Shown in pieces: positions 24,204 to 33,429 of a DNA stretch of 33,429 bases. Each line of letters begins with the position of its first letter. The stretch's first letter is position 1. Origin of the DNA: Algicola sp. GTDB taxonomy: Bacteria; Bacteroidota; Bacteroidia; Flavobacteriales; Flavobacteriaceae. The DNA lies in contig JAAEZL010000017.1 of assembly GCA_018222875.1 (NCBI GenBank), forward strand, positions 6,050-39,478. The letters are read 5' to 3'. The notes beneath the pieces were generated by a model. That model made no database searches. It worked only from the letters and a program-made list of their open reading frames with translations, and had not been told where the DNA came from. The translations under genes and the position numbers were made by a program.

Positions 24204-24418
24204 GATATTAGATTTAATGATTAGTTTTTTAATTCATGTAAATTTACAAACTAGATGAGCCTTAATTTGTTAATAAAACTATAAATTCCAATAGTGTATT
24301 CCTGTTAACCACACTTCAAAAAGGAATACCTGCAAAGTCGCAATTAACTTGATGATACTTTTTTGAGATGAATTCATAAGATTATCACACACCTTATGAT
24401 AATGTCTTGTTAAATTTT

Positions 24419-24446
24419 GTTTAACTATTTAGATAAATAGTTAAAC
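24419..24446. promoter_or_regulatory. Candidate TetR operator: 28-bp palindrome
   Basis: GTTTAACTATTTA (24419-24431) GA TAAATAGTTAAAC (24434-24446), perfect 13-bp arms, 31 bp upstream of the TetR-like ATG. Confidence 0.65.
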
Positions 24447-24477
24447 ATTTTGTATATTTACATTATAATTACAAGTC

Positions 24478-25134
24478 ATGGCAAAAAAGAAAAACATTAC
24501 TAATAACGATATTATTACCTACTACATGGACTTTGTTCTTGAACATGGTCATCAACCTAAAACAGTCTACGCATTTGCTAAAGCTAATAACTTTGAAGAG
24601 CAAAAGTTTTATGAGTTTTATGGTTCATTTGAAGTTATTGAAAAACATATATTTAAAGCGTTTTATGACAACACAATTCATGCTTTAGAAAAAAATGAAG
24701 ATTATATGTCTTTTGATGCTCGTAATAAATTACTAAGCTTCTACTTTACATTCTTTGAAAACCTAACAGCTAACAGAAGCTATGTTATTTATGCGTTAGA
24801 AAAGCATAAAAACAGTCTAAAGGGGCTTCAGTTACTTTCAGAATTGAAACATGCTTTTACAAATTACATTGAGCATTTAGGTATCGAATTAATAGAAATA
24901 AAACAAGAGCAAATCGACAGAATTCAACGTCGTGGTTTAAAAGAAACGGCTTGGCTTCAACTATTGCTCACCATGAAGTTCTGGATGGATGATTCATCTG
25001 CCGGATTTGAAAAAACAGACATATTTATCGAAAAGTCAGTCAATACAACCTTCGATGTCCTAGATGTTGCTCCAATAAGAAGCTTAATTGATTTTGGAAA
25101 ATTTATCTACAAGGAAAAAATCCACATGAACTAA
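24478..25134 (+). CDS. TetR-like transcriptional regulator
   Basis: N-terminal HTH-like region NDIITYYMDFVLEHGHQPKTVYAFAKANNFEEQKFYEFYGSFEVIEKHIFKAF; helical C-terminus. Confidence 0.78.
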   Translation: MAKKKNITNNDIITYYMDFVLEHGHQPKTVYAFAKANNFEEQKFYEFYGSFEVIEKHIFKAFYDNTIHALEKNEDYMSFDARNKLLSFYFTFFENLTANRSYVIYALEKHKNSLKGLQLLSELKHAFTNYIEHLGIELIEIKQEQIDRIQRRGLKETAWLQLLLTMKFWMDDSSAGFEKTDIFIEKSVNTTFDVLDVAPIRSLIDFGKFIYKEKIHMN

Positions 25135-25135
25135 A

Positions 25136-26455
25136 TTGTCTCAAATGAAAACCATAGATAAAATTCCAACCTCTAAAATACAACGTGCCACCAAATTAGT
25201 TTCAACTGGAGCTAAAGTTGGTGTTAATTACCTCAAGTATTACGGAGATAAAATCACCAAAACTGAATTAGAAGCAAAAGAGCGTTTAAATGTTAATAAC
25301 GCTTCTGATATTTACGATGGACTCAAGCAATTAAAAGGCAGTGCACTCAAAGTAGCGCAAATGCTAAGCATGGAAAAAAGCATCATGCCTCAGGCTTATG
25401 TTGAAAAATTCTCTTTAGCTCAATTTTCTGTACCTCCACTCTCACCTCCTTTGGTGATAAAAACGTTTAAAAAATATTTTGGAAAACTTCCAAACGAATT
25501 ATATGATACTTTTAACGCAACGTCTGTAAACGCTGCCAGCATCGGACAAGTCCATCTGGCAACTAAGGATGGGAAAAAACTTGCTGTGAAAATCCAATAC
25601 CCAGGCGTTGCAGAAAGTATCGCATCAGATCTTGCTATGGTAAAACCAATAGCCATGAGCATGTTCAACATTAAAGGAAAAGGATCTGATAAATACTTTA
25701 AAGAAGTTGAAAATAAACTGGTTGAAGAAACCGATTACATTCTTGAAGTTCAACAAAGTAAAGAAATCGTAGATGCTTGTAGTCATATTCCAAATTTGAA
25801 ATTTCCGAAATATTACGAAGCACTTTCGAATGAGAGAATTATCACCATGGATTATATGGTTGGTGAACACCTTTCTGAGTTTGTTTCTCACAATACGAAT
25901 CAGGACATATCAAATCAATTAGGTCAGGCATTATGGGATTTCTACATGTTTCAAATTCATAATCTTAAAAAAGTACATGCAGATCCACATCCTGGAAATT
26001 TTTTAATTTCCGAAGATGCGCAACTCATCGCTTTAGATTTTGGTTGTATGAAAACCATTCCTGAAGAATTTTATATACCTTATTTTGAATTAGCAAAAGA
26101 AGAAAACATTACCAATAAAACGTATTTTAAGAATAAGCTTTACGAACTTGAAATTTTACGTGAAGATGATTCAAAACAAGAGATAGCGTTTTTTACAGAA
26201 ATGTTTCATGAGATGCTAAGCCTGTTCACACAACCATTACATGCAGAAATTTTTGATTTTTCAGATGATAAATTCTTCGGAAAAATTGCAGAATTAGGAG
26301 AAAAATATTCTAAAAACACTGAACTCAGAAAAATGAACGCAAACAGAGGCTCTAAACATTTTATTTACATGAACAGAACTTTCTTTGGTTTATACAATTT
26401 GATGTTTGATTTAAAAGCTAAAGATATCCGAATCAATAATTTTCAGACCTTGTAA
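25136..26455 (+). CDS. ABC1/AarF/UbiB atypical kinase family protein (TTG start, or ATG at 25145)
   Basis: LKGSALKVAQMLSM (KxGQ-like), AASIGQVHLATKDGKKLAVKIQYPG, VHADPHPGNFLI, ALDFGCMK motifs. Confidence 0.93.
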   Translation: MSQMKTIDKIPTSKIQRATKLVSTGAKVGVNYLKYYGDKITKTELEAKERLNVNNASDIYDGLKQLKGSALKVAQMLSMEKSIMPQAYVEKFSLAQFSVPPLSPPLVIKTFKKYFGKLPNELYDTFNATSVNAASIGQVHLATKDGKKLAVKIQYPGVAESIASDLAMVKPIAMSMFNIKGKGSDKYFKEVENKLVEETDYILEVQQSKEIVDACSHIPNLKFPKYYEALSNERIITMDYMVGEHLSEFVSHNTNQDISNQLGQALWDFYMFQIHNLKKVHADPHPGNFLISEDAQLIALDFGCMKTIPEEFYIPYFELAKEENITNKTYFKNKLYELEILREDDSKQEIAFFTEMFHEMLSLFTQPLHAEIFDFSDDKFFGKIAELGEKYSKNTELRKMNANRGSKHFIYMNRTFFGLYNLMFDLKAKDIRINNFQTL

Positions 26456-27069
26456 TGATTCACATAAGTAATGAAGATATTGACAACTTTCACCATGTTT
26501 ATCGAATCAATTTAATAAACAGTTGTTCTGGTTATAAATCGGCTAATTTACTTGGAACCAAATCGGTTGATGGCATTGAAAATGTCGCAGTATTTAGTTC
26601 TGTAACTCACATTGGTTCTAACCCTCCTATGCTTGGGTTCTTTTTACGTCCAACTACTGTGATGCGAAATACTTATGAAAATTTAAAGTCAACTGGATTT
26701 TACACCATCAATCACATTCATAAATCCATTTTAGAAGAGGCACATCATACGTCTGCTAAATACGATTCAGAAATTTCAGAATTTGATAAAACGACTCTAA
26801 ATTCAGAATATAAAAAATCGTTTCAGGCACCTTTTGTAAAAGATACGCCTTTGCAACTGGCTATGGAATATGTTGAAGAATACAATATCAAAGCAAATAA
26901 CACTATCTTGGTTGTTGGAAAAATCGTCGAAATACACGTTAATGAAGAACTTCTGGAAGACGATGGTTTCATTAATTTATCAAAAGCTGACGTAGCAACC
27001 ATTAATGGTTTGGATGCGTATGCTATTCCTAAACAAAATAAACGCTTTGGCTATCAAAGACCAAAATAA
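26455..27069 (+). CDS. Flavin reductase-like (FMN-binding split barrel) protein
   Basis: NSCSGYKSANLLGTKSVDGIENVAVFSSVTHIGSNPPMLGFFLRP; NTYENLKSTGFYTINHI. Confidence 0.87.
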   Translation: MIHISNEDIDNFHHVYRINLINSCSGYKSANLLGTKSVDGIENVAVFSSVTHIGSNPPMLGFFLRPTTVMRNTYENLKSTGFYTINHIHKSILEEAHHTSAKYDSEISEFDKTTLNSEYKKSFQAPFVKDTPLQLAMEYVEEYNIKANNTILVVGKIVEIHVNEELLEDDGFINLSKADVATINGLDAYAIPKQNKRFGYQRPK

Positions 27070-27076
27070 TTAACAC

Positions 27077-28501
27077 ATGAAAATTCTTGTAACAGGCGCA
27101 ACAGGTTACATTGGTAAACGATTAATTCCGTTATTGGCCAATGATGAACATCATGTTGTGTGCGCTGTTCGCGACAAACTTCGTGCTGACAAAAATTATG
27201 CTGAGGAAGATTTAATTGATGTGGTTGAAGCCGATTTTTTAAAACCTGAAACACTTCAGAGTATTCCAAAAGACATTGATGTTGCCTATTACCTGATTCA
27301 TTCCATGTCTAATTCTTCAAAAGATTTTGAGTCACTTGAAGAACGATGTGCTGTTAATTTTAAAGATTACATCGAAACTACAAATGCAAAACAGGTTATT
27401 TATCTCAGCGGAATTACAAACGAAGAGAATTTATCTAAACACTTACAATCTCGCAAAAATGTTGAAAAACGTTTAGAATCTAAGGCTTACGCACTCACAA
27501 TTTTTAAAGCTGGAATAATCGTTGGCTCTGGAAGTTCTTCCTTTGAAATCATTAGAGATCTTGTTGAAAAATTGCCGTTTATGATAGCTCCTAAATGGTT
27601 GAATACTAAAACACAACCACTTTCGGTAAGGGATGTTCTAGCTTTTTTGCACAGAGGTGCAGGACGAGAAGAATTATATAACAAATCTTTTGATGTGTTT
27701 GGTCCTGAAGTCCTCACTTACAAACAGATGCTTTTACAATTTGCTGAAGTTAGAGGTCTAAAGCGCTCCATTTTGACAGTTCCTGTGATGACGCCAAAAT
27801 TATCATCCTACTGGTTGTATTTTGTCACATCAACGTCGTACAAGCTTGCAACTTCTTTAGTTGACAGTATGGGAGTTCAAATTATAGGTAAGAAAAGTGA
27901 TATCAATAACATACTGAAAGTAAATCCACTGACTTACAAACAAGCTGTTGAACTGGCTTTTGAGAAAATAGAGCAAAATAGCATTGTATCTAGTTGGAAA
28001 GATTCAATGGTTAGTAGTGGCAGACTTCGCAATAATCTTCATAAATACATCAACGTTCCAAAATTTGGCTGTTTTACAGATTACAAAGAACGAAAGGTTA
28101 CTGATACTGAAAAAACAATTGACAGAATATGGAGTATTGGAGGCACTAATGGCTGGTATTACGGCACATTTCTCTGGAAGATCAGAGGTTATATTGATAA
28201 ACTTTTTGGTGGTATAGGTTTACGTCGCGGAAGAACAAGTCCGACCGATTTAGATGTTGGTGATGCCTTGGATTTTTGGCGTGTTATTTTTGCAGATAAA
28301 GAACAACAAAAACTTCTACTCTATGCTGAAATGCGACTTCCTGGTGAAGCTTGGCTGGAGTTTAAAATTGAAAATGGAGTGCTAAAACAAACGGCTACTT
28401 TTAGACCACGCGGACTTTGGGGCAGATTGTACTGGTATAGTGTATTGCCTTTTCATGGATTTATTTTTCGAGGTATGATAAATAAACTTGTAGATGTCTA
28501 A
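27077..28501 (+). CDS. NAD(P)-binding SDR family protein with DUF2867 C-terminal domain
   Basis: [20 protein letters not shown] Rossmann motif; C-terminal [21 protein letters not shown]...[17 protein letters not shown]. Confidence 0.9.
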
Positions 28502-28637
28502 TCACAAAAAAACACACTTACCAGAAAAGACATGTCACACTTGTGGTTTACCTTTTAGCTGGAGAAAAAAATGGAAAAAAAACTGGGATGAAGTGAAATA
28601 TTGTAGTAAAAAATGCAGGAGAAACAAAACGACATAG
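28494..28637 (+). CDS. DUF2256 zinc-ribbon-like small protein
   Basis: [47 protein letters not shown]; CxxC...CxxxC; overlaps upstream stop by 8 nt and downstream start by 25 nt; too short for the ORF track. Confidence 0.9.
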
Positions 28638-29923
28638 CATTAGTATGGTTTAGAAACGATTTGAGAGTTCAGGATAATACGGTTTTGAACAACGTCATTC
28701 GTAGCCATCAATCGGTTATTGCCTGTTATTGTTTTGATCCCAAACATTACCAAATCTCTGAATATGGCTTTAAAAAAACCGAAAAGTTCCGAGCTAAGTT
28801 TTTAATTGAAACCATTCACGACTTAAAACATAATCTAAAAGCATGTAATATAGAATTGCTTGTCGCTCATGAATCTCCTGAAACTTTTATAAAATCACTG
28901 GTTGCAAGATTCAACATCCAATCGATGTATCTGCAGAAAGAATGGACAAGCGAAGAAGTTGAAACTCTAAACAATGTTAGAACCTCCTTACCTTCAGAAA
29001 TTAACATTCATGAATATTATGACCAGTTTCTGTATCATCCGAAAGACATCAACATGTCATTATCAGAGATTCCTCAGGTTTTTACCAATTTCAGAAAAAA
29101 AGTTGAAAAGTATAGTAAAGTCAGACCACCAGTAGAAAATCATTCCACAGAAAAAACAGTTGACTTAACTAATAATACTAAAATTCCAACACTTGAAGAT
29201 TTAGGTTTTGAAACTTTTGAAACCCATCCAAACTCAGCATTTCCTTTTACAGGAGGTGAAACAAATGCTTTAAACAGACTTAATAATTACTTTTTTGAAA
29301 CTAAAACATTAGTCATTTATAAAAAGACCAGAAACGGATTGGCAGGAACTGGTTTTAGTTCAAAATTCTCATCATGGCTGGCTAATGGAAGCATTTCATC
29401 AAGAACGATTTATAATAAGGTCAAAGAATTTGAAAATAAACATTTTAAAAATGAATCTACCTACTGGTTGATTTTTGAATTGATTTGGAGGGATTATTTT
29501 AAATACATCTCACTAAAACATCAAAACAATATTTTCAAAGTTGAAGGCATTTTAAAGAAAGATTACGATTGGAAGACTGATGACCATGAAATCCGGAAAT
29601 GGATAGACGGAAAAACCAAATCTTCCTTTGTAAATGCCAACATGATAGAAATCAAAAAAACAGGTTGGATGAGTAATCGAGGTCGCCAAAATGTGGCTTC
29701 CTTTTTTGCAAAAGACATGTTATTAGACTGGCGAATTGGAGCTGCCTATTTTGAATCGATGCTAATTGATTACGATGTTCATAGTAATTACGGCAACTGG
29801 ATGTACGTTGCTGGTGTTGGTAATGATCCCAGAGATCGAAAATTTAATGTTGATTTACAAGCTACACGCTACGATGCCAATGGTAATTTTCAAAAGTTAT
29901 GGTTACAAGAAACGCTATTCTAA
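28613..29923 (+). CDS. DASH family cryptochrome
   Basis: [86 protein letters not shown]. Confidence 0.95.
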
Positions 29924-30042: not shown

Positions 30043-31575
30043 ATGAAAACACTCAGACTCATAGTAGGAGATCAGCTCAATATAAAACACTCATGGTTTA
30101 AAGAAACAAATGAGGATGTTACCTATTGTTTATTTGAAATGCGTCAGGAAACCGATTATGTAAAACATCACCTTCAAAAAGTAATTGGCTTTTTTGCTGC
30201 AATGCGTCAGTTTGCTGAAGATTTAAAAGCAGAAGGCCATAATGTAGACTATTTCAAAATTAATGATGAGAAAAACACACAGTCATTAACCGATAATCTT
30301 TCCAAATTAATAAAAGAACATGCTATTGAAAACTTTGAATACATCTATCCAGATGAATACAGGTTGGATAAGCAATTGCGTGATTTTTCGAATACATTAG
30401 ACCTCACTACCAATATCGTTTCAGCTGAACACTTTTATACCAAACGTAACGATTTAGCCACGTTTTTTAAAGGTAAAAAGCAATATCTCATGGAAAATTT
30501 TTACAGAGATATGCGAAAGAATCACGATATTTTAATGACTGCTGACCAACCGGAAGGAGGTAAATGGAATTACGATAAAAGCAACAGAAATAAATGGAAA
30601 GGTGATGTTGAAATTCCGAATTACAAATTATTCAAAAATGATGTTTCTGAAGTTGAAAACGATATAAAAAAGGCGAAAATTGAAACCATCGGACGATTCG
30701 ACACCAAAACGTTTTCCTATCCTATTACAAGAGTTCAAGCTTTAGAACAACTCAAATATTTTTGCGAAGCTTTACTCATTCATTTTGGAGATTATCAAGA
30801 TGCCATGCATACTGATGAAACCTATTTGTTTCATTCGAGGTTATCGTTTGCCATGAATTTAAAACTAATTTCGCCTAAAGATGTTGTAAAAACAGTCATG
30901 AACTACTACAGAAAACATGACGATGACATTGATATTTCTCAGGTAGAAGGCTTTGTGAGACAAATTATTGGCTGGCGAGAATATATGAGAGGTATGTACT
31001 GGGCGTTTATGCCAGGCTATACGTCTAAAAATGAATTGGACAACCACAATAAGCTTCCTGATTTTTTCTGGACAGGCAACACCAAAATGAATTGCCTGAA
31101 ACATGCTATAAATAATTCATTAGATAATGGTTACGCACATCACATTCAACGCTTAATGATTACAGGAAATTATGCCTTACTTACCCAAACGCATCCAGAC
31201 GAGGTTGACGATTGGTATCTGGGAATCTACGTCGATGCTATAGAATGGGTTCAACTCACAAATACACGAGGTATGAGTCAGTTTGCAGATGGCGGAAAAA
31301 TTGCGACTAAACCTTACGTCTCTTCAGGTTCCTATATTAATAAAATGAGCAATTACTGTAGCGGTTGTCAGTATAACAAATCTAAAAAAACTGGTGATGA
31401 TGCTTGTCCGTTTAACAGTCTGTACTGGAATTTCCTTGATGAAAAACGCGAACAGCTTGGGAACAATTACAGAATGGGAATGATGTACAGCCTTTCGGAT
31501 AAAATGGACAAACAACAACTTCAGAGTATAAAAGAAAAAGCACAACATATCATAGCACACCAAGATGATTACTAA
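30043..31575 (+). CDS. Iron-sulfur bacterial cryptochrome/photolyase (FeS-BCP, PhrB/CryB type)
   Basis: LRLIVGDQLNIKHSWF; MNCLKHA plus CSGCQYNKSKKTGDDACPFNSLYWNFL giving four candidate 4Fe-4S Cys ligands (C...CxxCx12C). Confidence 0.94.
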   Translation: MKTLRLIVGDQLNIKHSWFKETNEDVTYCLFEMRQETDYVKHHLQKVIGFFAAMRQFAEDLKAEGHNVDYFKINDEKNTQSLTDNLSKLIKEHAIENFEYIYPDEYRLDKQLRDFSNTLDLTTNIVSAEHFYTKRNDLATFFKGKKQYLMENFYRDMRKNHDILMTADQPEGGKWNYDKSNRNKWKGDVEIPNYKLFKNDVSEVENDIKKAKIETIGRFDTKTFSYPITRVQALEQLKYFCEALLIHFGDYQDAMHTDETYLFHSRLSFAMNLKLISPKDVVKTVMNYYRKHDDDIDISQVEGFVRQIIGWREYMRGMYWAFMPGYTSKNELDNHNKLPDFFWTGNTKMNCLKHAINNSLDNGYAHHIQRLMITGNYALLTQTHPDEVDDWYLGIYVDAIEWVQLTNTRGMSQFADGGKIATKPYVSSGSYINKMSNYCSGCQYNKSKKTGDDACPFNSLYWNFLDEKREQLGNNYRMGMMYSLSDKMDKQQLQSIKEKAQHIIAHQDDY

Positions 31576-33049
31576 GGCTCCAAAAATAAATGTAGTTTGG
31601 CTAAAACGTGATCTTCGATTAGAAGATAACGAAGCCATAGTCAATGCACTTGAAACTGGTGAACGCACACTCCTGCTCTATGCGTTTGAAACAATGCTGA
31701 TGGAAGACAAACATTACAGTGAACGTCATTGGAATTTTGTAAAGGAATCGATCAGAGATTTGAATCTGCACCTCAAACCTTACCATACAAAAGTGTTAAC
31801 TGTTGAAGCAGATATTATTTCAGCTATAAATCAGCTTATGGAATTGTATACGATTAAAGATATATATTCACATCAGGAAACTGGAATTCTTATCACGTAT
31901 AACCGAGATAAAACGTTTAAACGCTTTTGCAAAAACAATGTAATCACCTGGCACGAATCTATAAATAATGGTGTGCAACGTGGTTTAAAAGATCGTGAAA
32001 AATGGACAGACATGTGCAATACCTATTTTGATACTGAACCACTTCCATTTAATCCTTCTCCTAACCAATTGCTGAACTTAAAAGAAATTGAAGCTTTAGA
32101 AGAACTACTTATTGTTCCGTCGTTAGAAACTCCAGAAGATACTTTATTTCAAAAAGGCGGTCGCTCAACAGGAATGAAGTATTTAAATTCGTTTCTCGAC
32201 AAACGTTATGTAAATTACATGTTTCACATTTCTAAGCCAGAACTCGCTAGAACAGGCTGTAGCCGAATCTCACCTTACATTTCCTGGGGAAATTTATCGA
32301 TAAGAGAAGTGTATAGAAAAGCTTTTTTTCTAAAGAAAACCGCAGAGAACAAAAAGTCGCTGGAAGCTTTCATGTCACGTCTGAGATGGCAGGCGCACTT
32401 CATTCAGAAGTTTGAGATGGAACACACCATGGAGCAGGAAAGTATAAATAAAGGATTTCAAAAATTAAAAAAAGAAATTTCTTATCAGTATCAAATCGCA
32501 TGGAAAACAGGACAAACAGGTTATCCATTGGTCGATGCCTGTATGCGTTGTTTAAATGAAACTGGCTATTTAAATTTTAGAATGCGTGCGCTTGTCGTAT
32601 CGTTTTTTACACATAATCTATGGCAACCTTGGCAAGCTGCTTCACAACATTTATCACAAATGTTTTTAGATTTTGAACCTGGAATTCACTTTCCACAACT
32701 TCAAATGCAAGCAGGTGAAACCGGAACAAATATGCTTAGAATCTACAATCCTGTAAAAAATAGTTTAGAGCATGATCCTGAGGCCGAATTTATTAAGAAA
32801 TGGGTTCCGGAACTTAAAGATTTAGATACTCCTTTTGCTCACGAACCTTATATAATGACTGAATTGGAACAGCAACTTTATAATGTTCATCTCGGTAAAG
32901 ATTATCCGTTTCCAATTGTTGAAATCAAAGAAACCCGGAAAAAAGCGTCAGAAATCTTGTGGAATCTCCGCAAAAATAAAAAAGTCAAAGACGAAAGTCT
33001 CAGAATTCTTAAAAAACACACCTTAAGAGGACCGAAATTTTCCGATTAA
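31565..33049 (+). CDS. Photolyase/cryptochrome homologue (FAD-binding domain-containing, divergent)
   Basis: INVVWLKRDLRLEDNEAI N-terminal photolyase motif; SRLRWQAHFIQKFE, GYPLVDACMRCLNETGYLNFRMRALVVSFFTHNLWQPW, MLRIYNPVKNSLEHDPEAEFIKKWVPEL. Confidence 0.92.
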   Translation: MITKAPKINVVWLKRDLRLEDNEAIVNALETGERTLLLYAFETMLMEDKHYSERHWNFVKESIRDLNLHLKPYHTKVLTVEADIISAINQLMELYTIKDIYSHQETGILITYNRDKTFKRFCKNNVITWHESINNGVQRGLKDREKWTDMCNTYFDTEPLPFNPSPNQLLNLKEIEALEELLIVPSLETPEDTLFQKGGRSTGMKYLNSFLDKRYVNYMFHISKPELARTGCSRISPYISWGNLSIREVYRKAFFLKKTAENKKSLEAFMSRLRWQAHFIQKFEMEHTMEQESINKGFQKLKKEISYQYQIAWKTGQTGYPLVDACMRCLNETGYLNFRMRALVVSFFTHNLWQPWQAASQHLSQMFLDFEPGIHFPQLQMQAGETGTNMLRIYNPVKNSLEHDPEAEFIKKWVPELKDLDTPFAHEPYIMTELEQQLYNVHLGKDYPFPIVEIKETRKKASEILWNLRKNKKVKDESLRILKKHTLRGPKFSD

Positions 33050-33064
33050 ACATCTCAAATTCAA

Positions 33065-33429
33065 TTGTTTAAAATTCATAAACATGTGTTTGTAAATTTG
33101 AGTATTCAAGAAAAACAAATAGAATTGATTTTAGACACCACACATCCAAATAAAGAACACAAAAAAATTATTAATGATTTAATTGGAAAGCCATTTTCAT
33201 TTTTTGAATCTTTAAGAATGGGAGGTGTCGGTTCAAAGCGAATGATTATTGAAGACGCGAGTCCTAACATGCAGCAATACCTGAACCTTGTTTCAGATAT
33301 AAACTATGCTAATATTGAAATGCGATCAGATGGCATCATAGTTTACATCAACAAAGGACTTAAAAATTACACCTGGATTATTCCTTATTACCAGTTAGTC
33401 ATTTACAAGACAAATGGAGCCAGTATTCA
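33065..33429 (+). CDS. Conserved hypothetical protein, N-terminal part (truncated by window edge); start codon uncertain
   Basis: Open frame LFKIHKHVFVNLSIQEKQIELILDTTHPNKEHKKIINDLIGKPFSFFESLRMGGVGSKRMIIEDASPNMQQYLN...GLKNYTWIIPYYQLVIYKTNGASI to the window end; candidate TTG 33065 or GTG 33086. Confidence 0.6.
   Translation, partial: MFKIHKHVFVNLSIQEKQIELILDTTHPNKEHKKIINDLIGKPFSFFESLRMGGVGSKRMIIEDASPNMQQYLNLVSDINYANIEMRSDGIIVYINKGLKNYTWIIPYYQLVIYKTNGASI

Follow-up and report, generated by a model that had tools for sequence, protein, structure and literature searches.

A conserved inverted repeat before a flavobacterial photolyase cluster is the probable operator of a distantly encoded CarH/LitR-like MerR regulator

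The window, that is, the whole 33,429-nucleotide stretch of DNA that was analyzed, contains a same-strand run of genes that the first-pass annotation had read as a TetR-like gene followed by AarF, flavin reductase, SDR, DUF2256, and photolyase/cryptochrome genes, and family matches agreed with this reading throughout (Table 1). Between 24478 and 29923 the genes overlap or are separated by at most 7 bp; the next gap, before the gene for the deoxyribodipyrimidine photolyase-related protein (DPRP), measures 119 bp and is followed by another overlap. Upstream of the run, the 28-mer GTTTAACTATTTAGATAAATAGTTAAAC was found at 24419 to 24446 with the perfect 13-bp arms and the 31-bp distance to the ATG (24478) that had been reported for it, and the -7-like element described behind it is also present. 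One extra T/A pair lengthens the palindrome to 24418 to 24447, with 14-bp arms, making it the longest perfect palindrome in the window when gaps of 0 to 8 are allowed. When the window was simulated 40 times with a first-order Markov model, the longest arm was 13 once and 14 once. Arm perfection alone thus gives only a P value of approximately 0.05, and the significance of the palindrome comes from its conservation.

Table 1. Features of the photolyase locus, perfect operator sites, and the MerR gene
Feature	Coordinates	Strand	Remarks
Accessory half-site TGTTAA (TGTnnA)	24408..24413	+	80-91% conserved, columns -9 to -4
Predicted operator TGTTTAAC-N14-GTTAAACA	24418..24447	.	Invariant spacing in 79/80 loci
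CarH-type half-sites TGTTTA and TAAACA	24418-24423, 24442-24447		N18 between; part of predicted operator
-7 promoter element TATATTTA	24453..24460	+	Conserved columns 35-42; 5 bp past operator
TetR-like gene	24478..25134	+	PF17931 TetR_C_23
ABC1/UbiB (AarF, COQ8-like) kinase	25136..26455	+	Adjoins TetR-like gene in 76/76 loci
Flavin reductase-like protein	26455..27069	+	PF01613
NAD(P)-binding/DUF2867 (SDR-type) protein	27077..28501	+	PF13460, PF11066
DUF2256 small Cys-rich protein	28494..28637	+	PF10013
CRY-DASH cryptochrome	28613..29923	+	TIGR02765 above cut-off
DPRP	30043..31575	+	PF04244
Cryptochrome/photolyase family protein	31565..33049	+	PF03441, PF00875
Perfect site 1, before TetR-like gene			Own genome
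Perfect site 2, before GLPGLI-family gene			Own genome
Perfect site 3, between DUF2007 gene and katG			Own genome
Perfect site 4, between MORN-repeat-like gene and fasciclin gene			Own genome
CarH/LitR-like MerR gene	G000 C236:18991-19887		Upstream of crtI

Conservation was assessed in 80 loci at which the TetR-like protein has an orthologue. Upstream of 79 of them, TGTTTAAC-N14-GTTAAACA was present, perfect or with no more than three changes, always with a spacer of 14 and with 28 to 42 bp between the element and the start codon. The check for conservation upstream of TetR orthologues that the first-pass annotation had proposed was therefore positive, and an operator heading the photolyase run is supported. 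In the column statistics of these loci, the left-end TGT and the right-end T and ACA were 100% conserved and the spacer columns were near background; the perfect inner arms of the palindrome are incidental. The -7 element belongs to a family with the consensus TATCTTTR (Bacteroidetes TAnnTTTG) and stands at a fixed distance from the operator across the loci; at the TetR-like promoter, the operator centre precedes it by approximately 20 bp. Additionally, TGTTAA is located approximately 10 bp upstream of the left half-site and in direct orientation to it, and this further half-site may have an accessory role.

The same element recurs at other promoters. The genome itself has four perfect TGTTTAA-N16-TTAAACA sites, and a near-perfect site abuts the crtI start codon, with a MerR gene containing a B12-binding domain just before it. 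The same set of targets recurs across the genus, where a reversed-pattern control gave 0 matches compared with 2 to 7 sites per genome carrying MerR. A genome-wide search for the palindrome had also been suggested, and here the whole 28-mer proved unique, with up to three mismatches allowed, while the conserved outer element recurred; as the inner arms are unconserved, a count of whole 28-mers would have missed the regulon. Matches to the element with one mismatch in the same genome were mostly due to chance (for example, L111, inside a histidine kinase gene), and only the conserved sites among them were used in reading the regulon. At crtI, in 46 of the 54 loci examined, at most a few bases separate the end of the site from the start, and the right part of the site holds a perfect TAnnTTTG -7 element; a site abutting the ATG (L118:1501-1533 and relatives) with the -7 element inside suggests a leaderless transcript. 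The start codon of MerR is itself overlapped, in 53 of 57 MerR genes, by an imperfect version of the site, TGTTTAA-N16-ATGAACA, which matches TnnACA. In other families of the order, too, genes for MerR homologues have the element beside them. Across the genus, the fasciclin-domain gene and the MORN-repeat-like gene diverge from one common operator (L110, L170, L177, L186, L193, and others).

The occurrence of sites was compared with that of MerR and of the TetR-like protein in 249 genomes of the family, in raw counts that ignore phylogeny and include incomplete genomes. At least one site was found in 136 of 143 genomes with a strong MerR and TetR, in 40 of 42 with a strong MerR and no TetR, in 8 of 18 with a divergent MerR, in 4 of 6 with TetR but no MerR, and in 3 of 40 with neither. 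Within the genus, the only congener that has no MerR (G011) has 0 sites, and a genome without TetR (G020) has three. Two genomes in which no MerR was detected, G083 (99% complete) and G183 (87% complete), have kept the TetR orthologue and the -7 element and lost the operator. Three genomes are exceptions: G205 and G253, both with a divergent TetR and without MerR, each carry a single site elsewhere in the genome, and in G103, which is 81% complete, the TetR site is present and no MerR was detected. Altogether, TetR is present with no operator at its locus in G083, G183, G205, and G253, and site presence tracks MerR, not TetR.

The sequence of the site also covaries with a single residue in the recognition helix of MerR: MerRs with RIWE go with TGTTTAA sites and those with RKWE go with TGTCTAA. 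TGTCTAA-N16-TTAGACA stands at the promoters of the divergent RKWE MerR genes themselves; G062 and G064, both RKWE, also have a TGTCTAA-type site before the TetR-like gene. Strict TGTCTAA sites were found in 9 of 15 RKWE genomes and in 5 of the 234 others. G049 has a MerR of the divergent group (group 2) that nevertheless carries RIWE, and the site before the TetR-like gene of this genome reads TGTTTAAC. For Cellulophaga, RKWE was predicted from the TetR sites before the MerR was read, and the MerR was then found to carry RKWE. A counterexample is G210, with an RIWE MerR and yet a TGTCTAA site. The divergent RKWE MerR genes often have two upstream operators approximately 52 bp apart (G209, G164, G193, G265, G062, and G247; loci L312-L329).

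The N-terminal MerR winged-helix families PF13411 and PF00376 matched 23 of 23 members of this MerR group, and Wx9EH (W143, E153, H154) and ExHxxG were invariant in an alignment of the 23 sequences. The best solved relative by sequence is Thermus CarH (PDB), and the predicted fold (mean pLDDT of 86.8) is closest to CarH and covers the CarH B12 domain. That domain is divergent here: PF02310 matched 2 of 23 members, the SxT/V and GG parts of the B12-binding motif are degenerate, and the score against the NCBIfam CarH equivalog NF052513 was 79 bits, below the cut-off of 400. Given the degenerate remainder of the B12 motif and a score short of the NCBIfam cut-off, we call the protein CarH/LitR-like and do not file it as CarH. 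TnrA/GlnR, whose half-sites are inverted TGT..ACA, has a DNA-binding domain related to that of this MerR, but these are nitrogen regulators that lack a B12 domain and have their half-sites closer together. The CarH and class I LitR proteins of Thermus thermophilus, Bacillus megaterium, and Myxococcus xanthus have the same MerR and B12-binding domains, Wx9EH, and ExHxxG and are likewise encoded next to crt genes, with an operator that overlaps the promoter (PMC8156234, PMC9304148). CarH operators are 11-bp direct repeats, nnnnTnnACAn, and the strictly invariant operator bases found here are the CarH half-site TnnACA (PMC9304148, PMC8156234). In contrast to CarH, the half-sites here are inverted and N18 apart rather than tandem, with one direct half-site only, 10 bp upstream of the operator; the predicted regulon is much wider, the B12 Rossmann motif is degenerate, and identity in a structure alignment is approximately 20%. 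The class II LitR proteins PplR/PmlR of Pseudomonas control a light regulon with phrB, cryB, SDR, and oxidoreductase genes through the operator TGTACA-N12-TGTACA (PMC9758184). They share the MerR family, a spaced operator of two half-sites, and photolyase/cryptochrome targets with the present case but act via a LOV protein, have no second B12 domain, and differ in half-site and spacing. MliR of Bizionia (PMC9478572), which has no effector domain, was considered as the same regulator and rejected.

Taken as a whole, the sequence comparisons make it highly probable that the operator belongs to the CarH/LitR-like MerR encoded elsewhere in the genome, and this protein is most likely a dark-active, light-released repressor of CarH/LitR type acting on a photoprotection regulon. 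We infer direct binding, repression, and dependence on B12 and light; that the operator is under light and B12 control is, by analogy, the likelier case, held with less assurance than the assignment to MerR. In the dark, the MerR, of CarH type and probably bound to adenosylcobalamin, would occupy the two inverted TnnACA half-sites and thereby cover the -33 region at the photolyase operon and the -7 element at other promoters, resulting in repression. Light would destroy the MerR complex and derepress crtI, katG, the fasciclin and GLPGLI genes, and merR itself along with the photolyase operon. The position of the operator, near the -7 element here and covering or adjoining it elsewhere, fits steric repression. 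Light release through adenosylcobalamin would be expected from what is known of the family and from the nature of the targets. More tentatively, and with the odds against it as a complete picture, a Flavobacteriales-wide CarH/LitR-like clade may read widely spaced inverted TnnACA half-sites in place of direct repeats and govern one photoprotection regulon (photolyases, carotenoids, katG, and fasciclin), with a single I-to-K change in the helix corresponding to a T-to-C change in the operator and with the "TetR" being a non-DNA-binding, COQ9-like partner of ABC1.

The MerR could also bind the operator and sense something other than light or B12, such as redox state or another ligand. A non-B12 mode is possible in this family, as B12-independent CarA and class II LitR illustrate, and both the degenerate Rossmann motif with its few PF02310 matches and the presence of katG among the targets, which would also suit oxidative stress, are consistent with another signal. 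However, the invariance of Wx9EH and ExHxxG, the photolyase and carotenoid gene targets, and the predicted coverage of the CarH B12 domain argue against it, and we regard this alternative as unlikely.

The TetR-like protein has a predicted fold of TetR type, with its helices in the TetR arrangement. Its recognition helix is conserved but acidic (NNFEExKFYExF), and a Pfam search of 21 orthologues, up to an E value of 1, gave no match to the TetR N-terminal HTH (PF00440) or to any other HTH family. A shared arrangement, in which MerR, via the operator, sets the light response and modulation of this response, or binding at a nearby site, falls to the TetR-like protein, would suit the location of the TetR-like and ABC1 genes together in the operon (76 of 76 loci) and the extra conserved TGTTAA upstream of the core. 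That motif, however, looks like one more half-site of CarH type and is also present in relatives, ahead of their second cluster promoter, and, with the acidic helix, this makes such an arrangement improbable. Still less probable is autorepression of the operon by the TetR-like protein through binding to the palindrome, as the first-pass annotation had proposed in place of control of the B12/MerR type. The adjacency of the gene and the predicted fold favor it, as does the finding that, among genomes without a strong MerR, sites occurred in 8 of 15 with TetR versus 7 of 49 without. This proposal is contradicted by sites at many promoters unrelated to TetR, including those of crtI and MerR, by the 40 genomes that have the site with MerR and no TetR, by the covariation with the MerR helix, by the loss of the site in G083 and G183, by the acidic, conserved helix, and by the lack of HTH family matches; TetR autoregulation was set aside on the basis of the site distribution, the co-occurrence, and the pattern of loss. 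A chance AT-rich palindrome or a transcription terminator, for which the low GC content and arms of at least 13 in 2 of 40 simulations might speak, has next to no probability, being refuted by the conservation of spacing and bases in 79 of 80 loci, the lack of a T-run and a G+C stem at the palindrome, and the empty reversed-pattern control.

With the operator assigned to MerR, the TetR-like gene is probably a target of the operator and not the source of its binder. The gene is directly followed by the ABC1/UbiB kinase gene in all 76 loci, and its product is possibly a COQ9-like protein of TetR fold: the fold is similar to that of COQ9 (TM of 0.53 to 0.61), and the partner gene encodes a kinase of the ABC1/COQ8 family. 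The sequence match is borderline (PF08511 matched 7 of 21 orthologues, with a best E value of 0.049), and TetR regulators match equally well or better. The TetR_C_23 and ABC1/UbiB proteins are possibly a COQ9-COQ8-like pair, and a function as a lipid-binding partner of the kinase is a lead only; these bacteria are expected to use menaquinone.

Members of the flavobacterial genus Chryseobacterium are reported to form pigment in response to light, and no light regulator is known for this (PMC7064467). A search of openly accessible papers found no CarH/LitR regulon described for the flavobacterial group. The present analysis names a candidate regulator, an operator, a testable list of targets, and a specificity residue for a major group of marine surface bacteria. 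The case further shows that a regulator-like gene next to a palindrome may not encode the protein that binds the palindrome.

Relatives carry a second site, also of the TetR-promoter type, approximately 8.5 to 9 kb further on, behind the photolyases, and an extra site within 9.8 kb was present in 56 of 76 loci. There, the second operator and a TAnnTTTG -7 element precede the next gene after the photolyases. The area near 33060 in the window gave no match to the element with N14 spacing; positions 33066 to 33100 retain only TGTTTA-N7-TAAACA, with the half-sites 11 bp closer, and the -7 element TAAATTTG. The gene at 33098 to 33429 (LILDTTHPNKEHKKIINDLIGKPFSFF...) is cut by the end of the window and had no Pfam match; it is conserved and, in relatives, linked to the photolyase cluster.
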